Shown here piece after piece: positions 574 to 60,445 of a stretch of DNA of 64,000 bases. The stretch is from Lelliottia sp. JS-SCA-14. GTDB taxonomy: Bacteria > Pseudomonadota > Gammaproteobacteria > Enterobacterales > Enterobacteriaceae. How positions within the stretch are numbered: the first letter of the stretch is position 1; each line of letters opens with the position of its first letter. Position numbers and translations under genes: made by a program. The stretch lies in NCBI RefSeq assembly GCF_035593345.1, contig NZ_CP141606.1:1488001-1552000 (forward strand). The letters are read 5' to 3'. The notes beneath the pieces were generated by a model that worked only from the letters and a program-made list of their open reading frames with translations, did no database searches and was not told where the DNA came from.

Positions 574-2622
574 TTAAACCAGCCCGAACAGGGTCAGTAA
601 CAGGTCGATAAGTTTGATCCCGATAAAAGGCACCACCAATCCGCCAAGACCGTAAATCCACAGGTTGCGGCGCAGCATGGCGGCAGCGGTCAGCGGTTTA
701 TAGCTCACCCCTTTCAGCGCCAGCGGGATCAGGAAGACGATAATCAGGGCGTTGAAAATCACGGCGCTGAGGATCGCCGACGCGGGCGAGTGCAGGTGCA
801 TCACGTTCAGGGCGTTAAGCTGCGGATAGGTGGCCGCAAACGCCGCCGGAATAATGGCGAAGTATTTCGCCACGTCGTTGGCGATACTGAAGGTAGTGAG
901 CGAGCCGCGGGTCATCAGCATCTGTTTCCCGATGTGCACCACCTCGATCAGCTTGGTCGGGTTAGAGTCCAGATCGACCATGTTGCCCGCTTCTTTTGCG
1001 GCCTGGGTTCCGGAGTTCATCGCCACCGCCACGTCGGCCTGGGCCAGCGCCGGGGCGTCGTTGGTGCCGTCGCCGGTCATCGCCACCAGACGGCCTTCGG
1101 CCTGGTACTGACGGATCAGCGCCAGTTTCGCTTCCGGCGTCGCTTCCGAGAGGAAATCATCCACACCGGCTTCAGCGGCGATGGCCGCGGCGGTCAGACG
1201 GTTATCCCCGGTTATCATCACCGTTTTGATCCCCATCTTGCGCAGCTGAGCAAAACGCTCTTTGATGCCGCCTTTGACGATATCTTTCAGGGCGATCACC
1301 CCGAGCACGTTCGCCCCTTCGGCGACCACCAGCGGCGTAGCCCCCTGGCGCGCCACGCTTTCCACCAGCTGATCGACCTGCGGCGGGAAGTGACCGTTGT
1401 TGGCCTCGATGTGGCGACGAATGGCGTCCACCGAGCCTTTACGGATCATGCGGTCCTGGATGTTAATCCCGCTCATCCGCGTCTGCGCCGTGAAGGGCAC
1501 AAAGGTGGCATGCAGGCTTTGCACGTCGCGCTGACGCAGGTTAAAGCGCTGTTTCGCCAGAATCACGATGCTGCGGCCTTCCGGTGTTTCATCGGCCAGC
1601 GACGAGAGCTGCGCCGCGTCGGCCAGGGTTTTCTCATCCACGCCAGGCGCAGGCAGGAAATCCGACGCCTGACGGTTGCCCAGCGTAATGGTCCCGGTTT
1701 TATCCAGCAGCAACACATCCACGTCGCCCGCCGCTTCGACCGCACGACCGCTGGTGGCGATGACGTTCGCGCCGAGCATCCGGCTCATCCCGGCCACGCC
1801 AATCGCCGACAGCAGGCCGCCGATGGTCGTCGGGATCAGGCAGACCAGCAGAGCCACCAGCACCGTGACGCTCACCGCCGTGCCGCCGTAGGCCGAGAAC
1901 GGCCACAGGGTGGCGGTCGCCAGCAGGAAGACGATGGTCAGGGCCACCAGCAGAATGGTCAGCGCGATTTCGTTCGGCGTTTTACGACGCTGCGCGCCTT
2001 CGACCATGGCGATCATCCGGTCGAGGAAAGTTTCGCCGGGGTTAACGCTGCACTGGATCACCAGCCAGTCGGAGAGAATGCGCGTCCCGCCCGTGACCGA
2101 GGCAAAGTCACCGCCGGACTCGCGGATCACCGGGGCGGACTCCCCGGTAATAGCGCTTTCGTCCACCGATGCGCCGCCTTCGATCACCTCCCCGTCGCAG
2201 GGGATGATGTCACCGGCTTCCACCAGCACCACGTCGCCTTTGCGCAGCTCATCGGCCGGGACGTGATCCATCTGTGCGCCGTATTTCGGCTCACGCAGTT
2301 TGCGGGCAAAGGCGGTCTTTTTGACCCCTTTCAGACTGTTGGCCTGTGCCTTGCTGCGGCCTTCCGCCAGCGCTTCGGCAAAGTTGGCGAACAGCACGGT
2401 AAACCACAGCCACAGGCTGATGGCACCGGTAAAGAGGGCATCGCCCGTCAGGTATCCGGTGCTCATGGCGACGGCCAGCACAGTGGTGATCACGCTGCCA
2501 ATCCAGACGATAAACATCACCGGGTTGTGCCACTGCACGCGCGGGCTGAGTTTTTTTACCGCATCCATCAACGCCTGGCGAACCAAGGTCGGTTCTAAGA
2601 GGGCCAGTTGTTTACGACTCAT
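574..2622 (-). CDS. kdpB: KdpB, potassium-transporting P-type ATPase catalytic subunit
   Basis: KdpB is the P-type ATPase subunit of the high-affinity K+ pump. It hydrolyses ATP at the cytosolic face while KdpA carries the ion. The 682-aa length equals the E. coli protein. Visible signatures are the actuator loop TGES (in [11 protein letters not shown]), the phosphorylation motif DKTGT near residue 307 (in [12 protein letters not shown]) and the hinge [18 protein letters not shown]. Several hydrophobic helices lie near the N terminus, around residues 215-275, and at the C terminus. It lies 19 nt after kdpA and 12 nt before kdpC, so it is translated from the kdpFABC mRNA. The serine of TGES is the known inhibitory phosphorylation site in E. 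coli, and it is present here. Confidence 0.98.
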
Positions 2623-2641
2623 GACTGATATCTCCGCTCTG

Positions 2642-4321
2642 TTAGCGTAAAGAAAGATGTTCCGCGACCGGGCCTAAAGCGAGGGCGGGGATAAAGGTCA
2701 GGGCACCGACCAGCAGGATGGTGCCAATCAGCAGGCCAATAAACAGCGCGCCGTGGGTTGGCAATGTCCCGGTCGACGTCGGCTGGATCTTTTTGCTCAC
2801 CAGCGACCCGGCGATAGCCAGCACCGGCACGATGACCCCAAAGCGGCCGAAGAACATGCAGAACGCCAGCAGGCAGTTCCAGAACGGTGAGTTGGCGCTT
2901 AACCCGGCAAAGGCGCTGCCGTTGTTGTTAGCGGCAGACGAGACGGCGTACAGCACTTCGCTAAAGCCGTGGATGCCAGGGTTGAAAATGCCGCTGCGCC
3001 CGGCTTCGGTCATCAGCGCCAGCGCGGTGCCGATCAGCACGAGAGCCGGTGTGACCAGGATAGCGAGGGCTGTCAGCTTCATTTCACGGACGTCGATTTT
3101 CTTGCCCAGATACTCCGGCGTGCGGCCAATCATCAGCCCGGCAATAAACACCGCCAGCAGAACGAACAGCAGCATGCCGTACAGACCAGACCCGACGCCG
3201 CCGAAGACCACTTCGCCAATCTGCATCAGCCACAGGGGGATCATCCCACCCAGCGCAGTGAAGGAGTCGTGCATCGCGTTCACCGCCCCGCAGGAGGCTG
3301 CCGTTGTGACGACGGCATACAGGCTGCTGGCGAGAATGCCGAAGCGGCTCTCTTTGCCTTCCATATTGATGCTGCTGTCAGCGCCCAGCTGCAGGAAGTG
3401 GCTGTTACCGTGCCATTCCGCCCACATCACCAGCGCCGCGCAGACCACGAAGATAATCGACATCGCCCACAGCAACGTGCGGCCCTGACGGCGATCGCTC
3501 ACCACATCGCCAAACGCAAAACAGAGCGCGGCGGGGATCAGGAAGATCGCCAGCATTTGCACGAAATTGGTCAGCGCAGTCGGGTTTTCGAACGGATGCG
3601 AGGAGTTGGCGTTAAAGAAGCCGCCGCCGTTGGTCCCGAGCATTTTGATCGCCTCTTGCGACGCCACCGGACCCATCGGCAGCATCTGTTTCACTCCTTC
3701 AAGCGAAGTGTAAGACGAGTAGGGCAGGAGATTCTGCAACGTCCCTTGCTGGATAAAGAACAGGGCAATCAGCAGAGAAATCGGCAGCAGCACCCACAGG
3801 GTGATGCGTGTGAGATCGACCCACGCGTTGCCGAGCGTGTTGATTTTTTGACGGGCAAAGGCGCGGGTCAGGGCGAAGATCACCGCGATACCGCTGGCGG
3901 CAGAGAGGAAGTTCTGCACCGTTAACCCGACCATCTGGCTGAAATAGCTCAGGGTGGTTTCCCCGGCATAGGACTGCCAGTTGGTGTTGCTGACGAAACT
4001 CACCGCGGTATTAAGCGCCAGATGCCATGACAGGCCCGGCAGCTGCTGCGGGTTCAGCGGCAGGATGCCCTGCAGCATCAGCATCGCGAACAGAAACGCC
4101 AGCCCGACGATGTTCAGCAGTAAAATCGCCGTCAGATACTGACGCCAGTTCATCTCCTCGGTATTCACGCCCAGTATGCGCCATACCCCGTTTTCGACGC
4201 CGCCGACTACCGGCAGCGCGCCGCCGTTAATCATCCGCGCCAGCCAGCTTCCTAGCGGTCTTGCAAGCACGAAAAGCACCAGCAGGAAGCTGGCGATCAG
4301 TAAAAATGCCTGGGCCACCAT
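2642..4321 (-). CDS. kdpA: KdpA, potassium-binding and channel subunit
   Basis: KdpA binds and passes K+ through the inner membrane and belongs to the superfamily of K+ transporters. Its 559 aa compare with 557 in E. coli. About ten hydrophobic spans are seen. The four selectivity-loop regions are recognisable, including [33 protein letters not shown] and the stretch [13 protein letters not shown]. The start ATG at 4321 overlaps the kdpF stop codon by one base (TGATG), so translation is probably coupled to kdpF. Expression should follow the KdpE box upstream of kdpF. Nothing unusual is seen in the reading frame. Confidence 0.98.
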
Positions 4322-57755: not shown

Positions 57756-58751
57756 ATGAAACAAACCGTTTATACCGCCAGTCCTGAGAGCCAGCAGATC
57801 CACGTCTGGCGTTTGAATGCGGAAGGCTCGCTCACGCTGGTGCAGGTGGTTGATGTGCCGGGACAGGTGCAACCGATGGTGGTCAGCCCGGATAAACGTT
57901 TTCTGTATGTCGGCGTGCGCCCTGAGTTTCGCGTGCTGGCCTACCGCATTGCGCCGGACGATGGCGCATTGACCTATACCGCCGAAGCGCCGCTGCCGGG
58001 CAGCCCGACGCACATCTCTACGGATCGCAAAGGCCAGTTCATCTTCAGCGGCTCTTACAATTCCGGCTGCGTGAGCGTTACGCCTCTGGTCGATGGTCTT
58101 CCGCAGGGGACCGTGGATGTCGTCGAAGGGCTGGAAGGCTGCCACTCGGCGAATATCTCCCCGGACAACCGCACCCTGTGGGTTCCGGCGCTGAAACAGG
58201 ATCGTATCTGCCTGTTCACCCTGAGCGACGACGGTCATCTGGCCGCGCAGACTCCGGCAGAGATTACCACCGTGGAAGGCGCAGGTCCGCGTCACATGGT
58301 GTTCCACCCAAATCAGCAGTACGCCTACGTGGTGAACGAGCTGAACAGCTCAGTCGACGTGTGGGAACTGAAGGATCCGAAAGGCCAGATTGAGCGCGTT
58401 CAGACGCTGGACATGATGCCATCTGACTTCACCGACACCCGCTGGGCAGCAGATATTCACATCACTCCGGACGGTCGCCATCTCTACGCCTGCGATCGCA
58501 CTTCCAGCCTGATCACCATTTTCAGCGTCTCGGAAGATGGCAGCGTGCTGGCCATCGAAGGCTTCCAGCCGACCGAAACCCAGCCGCGCGGCTTTAATAT
58601 CGACAACAGCGGCAAATTCCTTGTGGCGGCGGGACAGAAATCCCACCACATCGCACTGTATGAAATTAAAGGCGAGCAGGGGCTGCTGGAAGAGAAAGGA
58701 CGCTATGCCGTCGGCCAGGGGCCAATGTGGGTGGTGATTAACGCGCATTAA
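57756..58751 (+). CDS. pgl: 6-phosphogluconolactonase
   Basis: Pgl hydrolyses 6-phosphogluconolactone in the oxidative pentose phosphate pathway. It is the bacterial seven-bladed beta-propeller type, with 331 aa as in E. coli. It starts [20 protein letters not shown] and has propeller blocks such as [20 protein letters not shown] and [28 protein letters not shown] lies before the ATG. Its terminator also appears to serve a divergent small RNA read from the other strand. Confidence 0.97.
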
Positions 58752-58763
58752 GTGGCGTAAAAG

Positions 58764-58796
58764 CAAAAAAAACCTCGCGGATGCGAGGTTTTTTTA
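58764..58796. terminator. Bidirectional terminator between pgl and the IstR-like RNA
   Basis: AACCTCGC-GGAT-GCGAGGTT is an 8-bp perfect stem with A-runs before it and T-runs after it on both strands. On the plus strand it ends pgl; on the minus strand it would end the small RNA starting near 58836. Confidence 0.92.
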
Positions 58797-58836
58797 TGCC
58801 CGGTGGTAACCGGAAAGCACGTCAATTATTACCAAC
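58764..58836 (-). ncRNA. IstR-1-like antitoxin small RNA (candidate)
   Basis: A minus-strand promoter TTTACA (58871-58866), 17-bp spacer, TATTAA-side -10 TAATAT (58848-58843) would start RNA near 58836. The RNA would be about 73 nt and end at the terminator above. It begins GUUGGUAAUAAUUGACGUGC and continues UUUCCGGUUACCACCGGGC. From memory, E. coli IstR-1 is 75 nt, also starts GUUG, and has GUGCUUUGCGGUUACCA, so the order of blocks is the same. It is divergent from a TisB-like ORF, as istR is from tisB. A stretch CTGGAAAGGCA at 58937-58947 could pair with its CUUUCC region over about ten bases. Expression is not shown by sequence. Confidence 0.65.
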
Positions 58837-58977
58837 ACAACGATATTAATCCTTGCTGCCCGGTATGTAAAATCGATTGATTAATAACTCAGGACATTGT
58901 GCCGGCCTAAGAAATCTATCTGTCTGATTTTAAGCGCTGGAAAGGCAAAACCTTTATAAATTCCTAATTAACCTTAA

Positions 58978-58993
58978 CTGGGTTTATATACAG
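58978..58993. promoter_or_regulatory. LexA (SOS) box candidate upstream of the TisB-like ORF
   Basis: CTGG-GTTTATAT-ACAG differs from CTGT-N8-ACAG at one base and has the usual A/T-rich centre and AA/TT flanks. A -35-like TTTATA (58983) overlaps it and a good -10, TATACT, lies at 59005-59010. Such a promoter would start only about 3 nt before the ORF start. A weaker LexA-like dyad, TTGA-TTAATAAC-TCAG, lies at 58877-58892, nearer the small-RNA promoter. Confidence 0.5.
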
Positions 58994-59019
58994 TTTTTAA
59001 CGGGTATACTTCGTGGCGT

Positions 59020-59109
59020 ATGAGCGGTGTGGAATGGACGATCCTGTTCCTGCAACTCATGGTTGCGATTATGCAACTGTTGGATGCGTATCTTAAACTA
59101 AGAGCCTGA
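59020..59109 (+). CDS. TisB-like small hydrophobic peptide (probable type I toxin)
   Basis: A 29-codon ORF from ATG 59020 to TGA 59107-59109. It starts MSGVEWTILFLQLMV and continues AIMQLLDAYLKLRA. E. coli TisB is also 29 aa; compared from memory, 15 of 29 positions are identical, including the run QLLDA-x-LK. TisB is an SOS-induced inner-membrane peptide that lowers the proton-motive force and favours persistence. One amphipathic helix with D/K spaced on one side is expected. No strong ribosome-binding site is seen, as is true of other toxins of this class that need a standby site. The setting (divergent IstR-like RNA, LexA-like box, own terminator) supports the call. It is not at the E. coli tisB locus. 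Confidence 0.72.
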   Translation: MSGVEWTILFLQLMVAIMQLLDAYLKLRA

Positions 59110-59126
59110 TGCATTCAGTCGCAGCA

Positions 59127-59152
59127 AAAAGGGGGATAATTATCCCCCTTTT
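59127..59152. terminator. Bidirectional terminator between the small ORF and ybhC
   Basis: GGGGGATAATTATCCCCC (59131-59148) is a perfect palindrome flanked by A-runs and T-runs. It can end both the TisB-like transcript and the convergent ybhC mRNA. Confidence 0.88.
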
Positions 59153-59161
59153 GCTTATCTC

Positions 59162-60445
59162 TTACTGCTTCGGCTCAGCAACCACTTTGCTACCCAGACC
59201 GCGGTTGTTGTATTCCCACATGCGGTTGAAGTTCGCGTCGTTCAGATTGCGCTGCACGTTGCCTTTATCATCCATCGCCCCGGTGTTACCAGAGTACGGA
59301 CGTTTGGAGATCGCCGCGTCGGCCCATGGTTTAGCCATGGTGAAGCCTTCGTTGATCACGCTGTCGCGGATCACGACCTGACCGTTGGTGGCAGAGTCGA
59401 TATCCAGCGAACGGCCCAGCTGTGCCACGCCGTCACCGGATGCGGTAAAGCGGCTGTTCACGGCCAGGAAGCCGTAGAACATGTTGGACAGGGTTGCCGG
59501 CGCAAACACGTAACCTTCCTGCTGCGTGCGGGAGTTCACCACGCGGAACTCAGTGTTATCAAACACCACCGCGCCACGACCGGAGACGATATCCACATCA
59601 CCTTCGATATAGCTGTTGGTGACCTGAGTACGGGTCAGACGGTTATTCTGCAGGGCATTCTGCACGCCGCTGTTGGTCACGAAGAAGGTGTTCTGGCGAC
59701 CGAGAATGTTCACGTTGTTAATCTGCACTTTGTCGCCGTCAGTACGCAGGGCAACCGCCTGATGGTTACCCGCATCCACGCTGTCACCCAGGGTGTTCTG
59801 GATGGTCAGGTTCTGCAGCTGCAGGCCGTTGTTCTGCGACCAGAATACTGCCGAACACATCATGCCGACCGTCGCGGTCTGCTTGCTCTGGCAATTGTCG
59901 AACATGTACCATGCCGGTTTGCCTGGCATATATTTCCCGGCCGGGTTCACCAGGTGACGCCAGGTATTACGGTCGATTTCAGAGTCGATCGCCAGACCAA
60001 TTTTCACGTCGATCGCTTTTTCACCGGTACCGTAAAGGGTGATGCTGCCCGGTGCGGCAGGAACGTAGACCGTCCCTTCATACTCGCCTGGCAGGATTGC
60101 GATGTACTGGCGCGATGCGCTGTGCTTAGTAATCGCAGCGTCAACGGCAGCCTGAATGCTGGTGTGCGTCACGCCTTGGGTGCCTGCCGGGCCAACCACG
60201 AAGTTAGGCTGCGCAGGGATACTAATAGAAGACGGTGTCCACGGAGCCGCGTTTGGGTCCATGGCAGAGTAATAATGTGCCGCGGTGAAGTTCTTCGCTT
60301 CACCGGCAGACAAAATTGGGCGAGAGCCGGTGCCTGGCGCAGTCTGCTCGGATGGCAGCTGGTCAGGTGGAGTTGAGCTGCACGCGGACAATGTCACGCC
60401 AAAGGCGAGTGCCAACGCCAGACGAGAAATCCTGGAAATGTTCAA
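59162..60445 (-). CDS. ybhC: YbhC, outer-membrane lipoprotein of the pectinesterase family
   Basis: YbhC is a right-handed beta-helix lipoprotein of the carbohydrate esterase 8 family; the E. coli protein has been reported as an acyl-CoA thioesterase and its natural substrate is unclear. It has 427 aa, as in E. coli. The lipobox is VTLSACSS near residue 21. The family blocks GVTHTSIQAAVDAAI, SYIEGDVDIVSGRGAVVFDN and LGRSLD are present, with Asp residues at the esterase site. Its stop lies 10 nt beyond a bidirectional terminator. Confidence 0.93.
   Translation of the reverse strand: MNISRISRLALALAFGVTLSACSSTPPDQLPSEQTAPGTGSRPILSAGEAKNFTAAHYYSAMDPNAAPWTPSSISIPAQPNFVVGPAGTQGVTHTSIQAAVDAAITKHSASRQYIAILPGEYEGTVYVPAAPGSITLYGTGEKAIDVKIGLAIDSEIDRNTWRHLVNPAGKYMPGKPAWYMFDNCQSKQTATVGMMCSAVFWSQNNGLQLQNLTIQNTLGDSVDAGNHQAVALRTDGDKVQINNVNILGRQNTFFVTNSGVQNALQNNRLTRTQVTNSYIEGDVDIVSGRGAVVFDNTEFRVVNSRTQQEGYVFAPATLSNMFYGFLAVNSRFTASGDGVAQLGRSLDIDSATNGQVVIRDSVINEGFTMAKPWADAAISKRPYSGNTGAMDDKGNVQRNLNDANFNRMWEYNNRGLGSKVVAEPKQ

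Follow-up and report, generated by a model that had tools for sequence, protein, structure and literature searches.

Does the intergenic region between pgl and ybhC of Lelliottia sp. JS-SCA-14 encode a second, working TisB/IstR system? Among type I toxin-antitoxin pairs with a link to the SOS response, TisB/IstR is a well-studied one. In the Escherichia strains surveyed it always lies between ilvB and emrD, according to passages of PMC9040746. A preliminary description of 64,000 nt of the Lelliottia genome (NZ_CP141606.1, positions 1,488,001-1,552,000, forward strand) had proposed such a pair at another site. This whole stretch is referred to as the window, and positions are counted from its first letter.

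A TisB/IstR-type locus between pgl and ybhC

The locus and its flanks comprise the following features:
57756-58751, plus strand: pgl, 6-phosphogluconolactonase, left flank (NCBIfam NF008258, 566.5 bits, cut-off 370)
58764-58836, minus strand: istR2, predicted antitoxin-like RNA of ~73 nt, 5' GUUGGUAAUAAUUGACGUGC (Rfam istR below gathering; homologous istR2 elsewhere)
58766-58795, no strand assigned: hairpin, terminator of IstR2 on the minus strand (terminator prediction)
58843-58871, minus strand: istR2 promoter TTTACA-17-TAATAT (promoter prediction)
58978-58993, no strand assigned: LexA-type box CTGGGTTTATATACAG (same pattern at lexA, a umuD-type gene and recN)
58983-59010, plus strand: tisB2 promoter TTTATA-16-TATACT (promoter prediction)
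59011-59019, plus strand: junction at which relatives are ~175 bp longer (IstR site, structured leader, Shine-Dalgarno; locus comparison)
59020-59109, plus strand: tisB2, 29-codon TisB-family ORF with Trp6, Gln12 and Tyr24 (ORF and family profiles)
59127-59152, no strand assigned: tisB2 terminator hairpin (terminator prediction)
59148-59132, minus strand: terminator-like site within the tisB2 terminator hairpin, behind ybhC (terminator prediction)
59162-60445, minus strand: ybhC, right flank (NCBIfam NF007822 (PRK10531), 686.8 bits, cut-off 436)

Both flanks were matched by a family profile, in agreement with the proposed placement; we take the PRK10531 family to correspond to the gene name ybhC. 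The site indeed differs from that of E. coli MG1655, where tisB sits between ivbL/ilvB and emrD, and the peptide gene and the RNA gene are divergently oriented, as had been described. In the stretch examined three promoter-like and four terminator-like sites were predicted, compared to 1.0 (sd 1.1) and 0.4, respectively, in shuffled sequences. A hairpin like that at 58766-58795 was also found behind pgl in genomes without tisB2.

A second TisB ORF is located elsewhere in the same genome, and the two copies are far apart. This ordinary copy (tisB1/istR1) is accompanied by a full istR (95.8 bits in Rfam), and its leader is homologous to the tisB2 leader of relatives and carries a Shine-Dalgarno sequence as well as an IstR site. 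The TisB1 peptide is identical to E. coli TisB at 23 of 29 residues and to TisB2 at 15 of 29.

TisB2 belongs to the TisB family but carries Gln12

The preliminary description had counted 15 of 29 residues in common between the window ORF and TisB, and the same count was obtained with TisB of E. coli MG1655. The similarity of the peptide to TisB was borne out by family profiles, since the ORF scored above the cut-offs of Pfam PF13939 (33.6 bits, cut-off 25) and NCBIfam TIGR04459 (42.5 bits, cut-off 38). With NF011340, a narrower profile, it gave 32.1 bits, short of the cut-off of 53. Of the remaining TisB2 types, two lie over and two under the TIGR04459 cut-off. The control for the search with PF13939 matched 0 of 14 named genomes.

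Activity of E. coli TisB requires Lys12 and Gln19, and Leu, Asp or Arg at position 12 render the peptide inactive; a variant with Gln at this position is absent from the passages of PMC11449926 that describe these results. Position 12 is Gln in 18 of 18 TisB2 peptides and Lys or Arg in 65 and 3, respectively, of 68 ordinary copies, as read with a peptide pattern that allowed K, R or Q at this position and that all loci examined fitted. Gln19 is present in all TisB2 and ordinary copies compared, so that the window peptide has the required Gln19 and Gln12 in place of the required Lys12. Both requirements concern the activity and not the homology of TisB2. The peptide may be weak, may act differently or may depend on TisB1. 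What Lys12 does could be tested directly on the Gln12 branch. The two groups also differ at further positions: Trp6 occurs in 17 of 18 TisB2 (the remaining one has a stop) and in 7 of 68 ordinary copies, and position 24 is Tyr or Phe in 18 of 18 TisB2 and Val in 68 of 68 ordinary copies.

An IstR-like RNA gene and a LexA-type box

A minus-strand unit with TTTACA-17-TAATAT, a terminator and an RNA of ~73 nt starting with GUUG had been described, and it was recovered here with the promoter at 58871-58843 and the terminator at 58795-58766. The predicted IstR2 RNA has 73 nt, starts with GUUGG, contains GUGCUUUCCGGUUACCA and has a predicted fold with a z-score of -4.73. Alignment with the annotated E. 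coli IstR-1 yielded 47 identical positions. Rfam istR (RF01400) matches 58767-58872 on the minus strand with 33.8 bits (E 2.5e-4), which is the best istR match in the stretch examined but does not reach the gathering score of 45. For the other genome of the window's species, istR2 scored 31.3 bits, again under the gathering score, and in the tisB2 loci of the relatives scanned (L004-L007, L047, L009, L010, L052, L057) no Rfam istR match was obtained at E <= 0.05. The predicted RNAs of relatives are assigned to IstR2 by homology of position and by pairing, not by Rfam. Near-matches of the istR2 hairpin to STnc370, Leu_leader and Phe_leader were rejected, every one being under gathering.

The LexA-like box noted earlier is likewise present: CTGGGTTTATATACAG fits CTG-N10-CAG and is positioned at the promoter. 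A pattern derived from the window's own box, CTGNNTNTATATACAG, occurs four times in the 5.0-Mb genome, and its reversed control does not occur. The three occurrences outside the window locus precede lexA, a umuD-type gene and recN. A LexA-type box is found at the same place in relatives with a leader. Binding of LexA to the tisB2 box is suggested by these sequence patterns.

The tisB2 leader is missing in the window's species

In tisB2 loci, pgl and ybhC are spaced by 573-586 bp (13 loci), by 710 bp in one locus with an insert and by 297 bp in G078. The spacing in both genomes of the window's species is 410 and 409 bp compared to ~585 bp. About 175 bp are absent from both, including the IstR site and the Shine-Dalgarno sequence, and the missing piece starts right after the -10 box and stops right before GGCGTATG. 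The second genome (Lelliottia sp. V86_10, G084) has the same gap and encodes an identical TisB2 peptide; 7 of the 410 intergenic positions are not the same in the two genomes. No Shine-Dalgarno sequence was found within 20 nt upstream of the window tisB2 ATG. A GGAG-type Shine-Dalgarno is present in 15 of 17 tisB2 loci, and the two without it are those of the window's species.

The -10 box of window tisB2 ends 9 nt upstream of the ATG. By the usual -10 spacing, transcription would start at ~59016-59018, only 2-4 nt upstream of the ATG. This start is predicted, and one located further upstream, if present, would lengthen the tisB2 leader. The AUG lies within a predicted 6-pair stem. The IstR 5' end and the ATG are 184 nt apart in the window and 363 nt apart in E. 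coli.

Pairing of both window transcripts in silico, as suggested in the preliminary description, gave -18.2 kcal/mol for IstR2 and the remaining tisB2 mRNA. This value is at the background (mean -18.6 kcal/mol over 92 nt, sd 3.5). Complementarity of the antitoxin to the toxin mRNA, by which a type I pair is recognized, was found in 14 of 14 relatives with the leader site and was absent in the window. Of the proposed TisB/IstR system, the peptide, the RNA gene, their divergent order and the LexA-type box thus stand. A working pair is not supported, since the leader with its site and Shine-Dalgarno is gone and the predicted pairing is at background.

For the window ORF, pN/pS was 0.16 against the nearest intact group and 0.51 against the second tisB2 group. 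Within tisB2 groups pN/pS was 0.07 (6 loci) and 0.23 (7 loci), and it was 0.49 between groups. The low value and the identical peptide in two near-identical genomes are compatible with continued use and with recent loss.

IstR2 and its leader site vary together in relatives

At 14 of 17 tisB2 loci a leader of ~170-300 nt precedes the ORF in the mRNA. It includes a Shine-Dalgarno sequence and a site of 21-23 nt that is a close match to the beginning of the divergent IstR2 in the same genome. Each of the 14 loci with the leader site yielded a predicted duplex of IstR2 with its own leader in the range of -41.6 to -48.6 kcal/mol. Cross-pairing was analyzed in six genomes (parsed of eight; G023 and G020 were left out), the mRNA partners examined for IstR2 being the two tisB mRNAs. 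IstR1 on leader1 gave -40.9 to -49.9 kcal/mol in the six genomes and IstR2 on leader2 -43.0 to -46.0 kcal/mol in the five genomes with a leader. Crossed pairs reached -20.5 to -31.1 kcal/mol, compared to a background for 265 nt of -21.9 to -25.9 kcal/mol (sd 3.0-3.3) that was derived from the window, istR2 region included. Since crossed pairing is at or slightly over background, the IstR1 and IstR2 pairs look separate.

In a permutation of IstR2 against sites, the sum for own partners was -631.6 compared to a shuffled mean of -524.2 (sd 18.6; 0 of 20000). This test is uncorrected for relatedness, and specific pairing is instead concluded from the same matrix, in which each specificity type pairs best with its own type. 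The tisB2 leader is conserved (mean column identity 89%) except in the middle of the site. This middle occurs in six types among 14 loci, and each type has its counterpart in the IstR2 of the same locus; further pairing-sequence types are found in G419 and in the window's IstR2 (one each). In the ordinary loci both copies, sought by likeness to the corresponding 18-mer, were found in 66 of 68. Of the 66 IstR1 copies, 52 have identical 18 nt, and among the 66 sites 63 have one of two forms that are one base apart. IstR2 and its site vary together between species, in contrast to the nearly invariant ordinary pair. With an antisense specificity that is its own and diversifies, such a paralogue would provide a natural series on the joint change of antitoxin RNA and target.

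A consensus fold was computed for 13 of 14 leaders; L004 (G025) was left out for its insert. Here ~125 bp, which we take to be ERIC-like, lie between the IstR2 site and the Shine-Dalgarno sequence of the tisB2 leader. In the fold the 5' end pairs in cis with the IstR site. Pairs of this helix at columns 8-97, 9-96 and 13-92 are changed on both sides, and columns 8-97, 9-96 and 10-95 are broken in 1, 2 and 2 sequences, respectively. The arrangement recalls the inactive full-length tisB mRNA of E. coli as presented in passages of PMC7708055.

Explanations for the window locus

In relatives, tisB2 would very likely be controlled in the manner of E. coli TisB/IstR-1: LexA would repress the gene, the long tisB2 mRNA would fold over its own control site, and IstR2 from the divergent gene would pair with the 21-23 nt far upstream of the start codon and block translation. 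The long leader is taken as the older state because the ordinary locus has a homologous leader. In the window's species the leader is missing, the ORF, the promoter-like site and the LexA-type box are intact, a second TisB copy is present in the genome, and the promoter and terminator of IstR2 are kept. A deletion from after the -10 box to before GGCGTATG likely removed the site and the Shine-Dalgarno sequence. That the piece was deleted here and not inserted elsewhere, that transcription starts next to the ATG, that translation is near-leaderless and weak and that IstR2 is idle are all likely. We consider it probable that the window holds a second TisB/IstR-type locus, the toxin gene of which lacks the leader of relatives and gives rise to a likely DNA-damage-inducible mRNA that starts a few bases before the start codon, is poorly translated and escapes an antitoxin RNA that probably has no target. 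A weak, different or TisB1-dependent action of TisB2 with Gln12 could explain why loss of the antitoxin site was tolerated.

The locus might alternatively encode an active toxin free of its antitoxin: DNA damage would lift LexA, ribosomes would start on the near-leaderless mRNA, and TisB2 would be made outside IstR control. The intact promoter-like site, LexA-type box, ORF and terminator are in line with this, as are the identical peptide in two genomes and the pN/pS of 0.16 against the nearest intact group, and initiation of 70S ribosomes on an AUG at or near the mRNA 5' end is an established route (passages of PMC9031893). However, the Shine-Dalgarno sequence is absent, the AUG is within the predicted stem, and a real toxin without control ought to be costly, and we regard this outcome as unlikely. 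Still less credit is given to a wider version, in which TisB2 is a separate TisB branch without need of Lys12, perhaps joins TisB1 and tunes its pore, the antisense code shifts between species and the window's species has an SOS-induced peptide without any antitoxin. IstR2 could also have been retained to regulate the mRNA of the ordinary tisB1 as a backup, as it pairs with leader1 at -24.5 kcal/mol and with its own short mRNA at -18.2 kcal/mol. The former value is within one sd of the 265-nt background (-21.9 kcal/mol, sd 3.1) and far weaker than that of IstR1 on leader1 (-46.4 kcal/mol), which makes such a role very improbable. A complete working pair, as originally proposed, has the TisB-family ORF, the IstR-like RNA gene, the divergent order and the LexA-type box on its side, but with the pairing of IstR2 to the remaining mRNA at background and the leader and Shine-Dalgarno gone, it is the least credible reading, with hardly any probability left.

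Distribution of tisB2/istR2

The preliminary description had named missing conservation of the ORF in relatives as evidence against the locus. Of the 61 genomes of the genus, 17 carry tisB2 (E <= 5e-4), in each case between pgl and ybhC. An exact-pattern scan of named genomes yielded five of these 17 loci, carried by Lelliottia sp. V86_10 (G084), Enterobacter sichuanensis (G078), E. chuandaensis (G072), Silvania confinis (G074) and Leclercia sp. 29361 (G032). Another TisB locus is present in 17 of 18 tisB2 genomes; S. confinis is the sole one in which the ordinary copy was not found. A family-wide search with a TisB2-type query matched 10 of 392 genomes, seven of which are ordinary by peptide, and the remaining ones are G000, G028 and G419. 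In G419, from another genus, tisB2 precedes a ybhC-like end. It is one of four genomes of its genus, and the contig may be foreign because the assembly is 94% complete with 3% contamination.

Of 43 genomes with a pgl match and without tisB2, 39 have an intergenic region of 56-131 bp. In G060 (L099) a remnant of 219 bp lies between pgl and ybhC; it begins like istR2, ends like tisB2 and represents a mostly deleted copy. A ybhC match was absent from the fetched stretch in three of the 43 (L091, L092, L113), and in G033 no pgl match was found. Many of the tisB2-less intergenic regions (among L094-L128) contain GC-rich, presumably REP-like repeats at the position taken by tisB2/istR2 in other genomes. 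In a tree of 57 genomes built from a 560-bp ybhC piece, tisB2 presence needs 12 changes, at least 8 of which are forced by well-supported branches, and 22 of 500 label shuffles needed as few. Repeated loss, transfer or recombination of the ybhC piece would each be sufficient for the patchy presence. A mobile origin was considered and is unsupported: tblastn of the peptide returned two plasmid- and two phage-collection records with 61.5-65.4% identity at E 0.08-0.4. A nucleotide search of E. coli genomes with the window locus yielded no match at E <= 1e-5.

Comparison with known systems and other broken copies

Among the literature matches listed, no title was on a second TisB locus. The paralogous TisB2/IstR2 group includes the window locus as an uncoupled member. 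Like the window locus, E. coli tisB/istR-1 and the ordinary copy consist of a 29-aa hydrophobic peptide, a divergent antisense-type RNA gene and a LexA-type box. The long structured leader, the far-upstream IstR site and the Shine-Dalgarno sequence of E. coli tisB, seen in passages of PMC7708055, are shared by tisB2 of relatives and lacking in the window. Further differences to the E. coli system are its chromosomal site by ivbL/ilvB and emrD (passages of PMC9040746), the pairing sequence and Lys12 in place of Gln12 (passages of PMC11449926). The zorO-orzO/zorP-orzP loci of E. coli O157:H7 are likewise duplicated type I pairs with a short variable stretch as antitoxin-specific target. They encode another toxin and form a duplicated locus, whereas the copies of the window genome are far apart (passages of PMC3919570). 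Orphan orz genes of E. coli, described in passages of PMC11264685, also are type I antitoxin genes without a partner; there the toxin gene is absent, whereas the window keeps the toxin ORF and has lost the antitoxin's site.

The uncoupled window copy, together with repeat fusions in two other species, illustrates how such pairs fall apart. In the ordinary locus of G023 (L036) an ISL3-family transposase gene (1731-2951, minus strand) is located directly upstream of the LexA box in place of istR1. No istR match was found at this locus, the TisB1 leader and ORF are intact, and tisB1 is a toxin gene without an adjacent antitoxin. G031 has no tisB2 and is the nearest relative outside the window's species on the ybhC tree. 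In its ordinary locus (L042) the copies in istR1 and in the tisB1 site have been fused; the LexA box and both promoters are gone and the TisB1 ORF is intact. G078 shows a fusion of istR2 with the copy in the site; it has lost both promoters and the box, and codon 6 is a stop. Antitoxin gene and target are direct repeats, so that one recombination between them deletes both promoters. The ~288 bp lost in G078 agree with the distance of 291 bp between the direct repeats in relatives.
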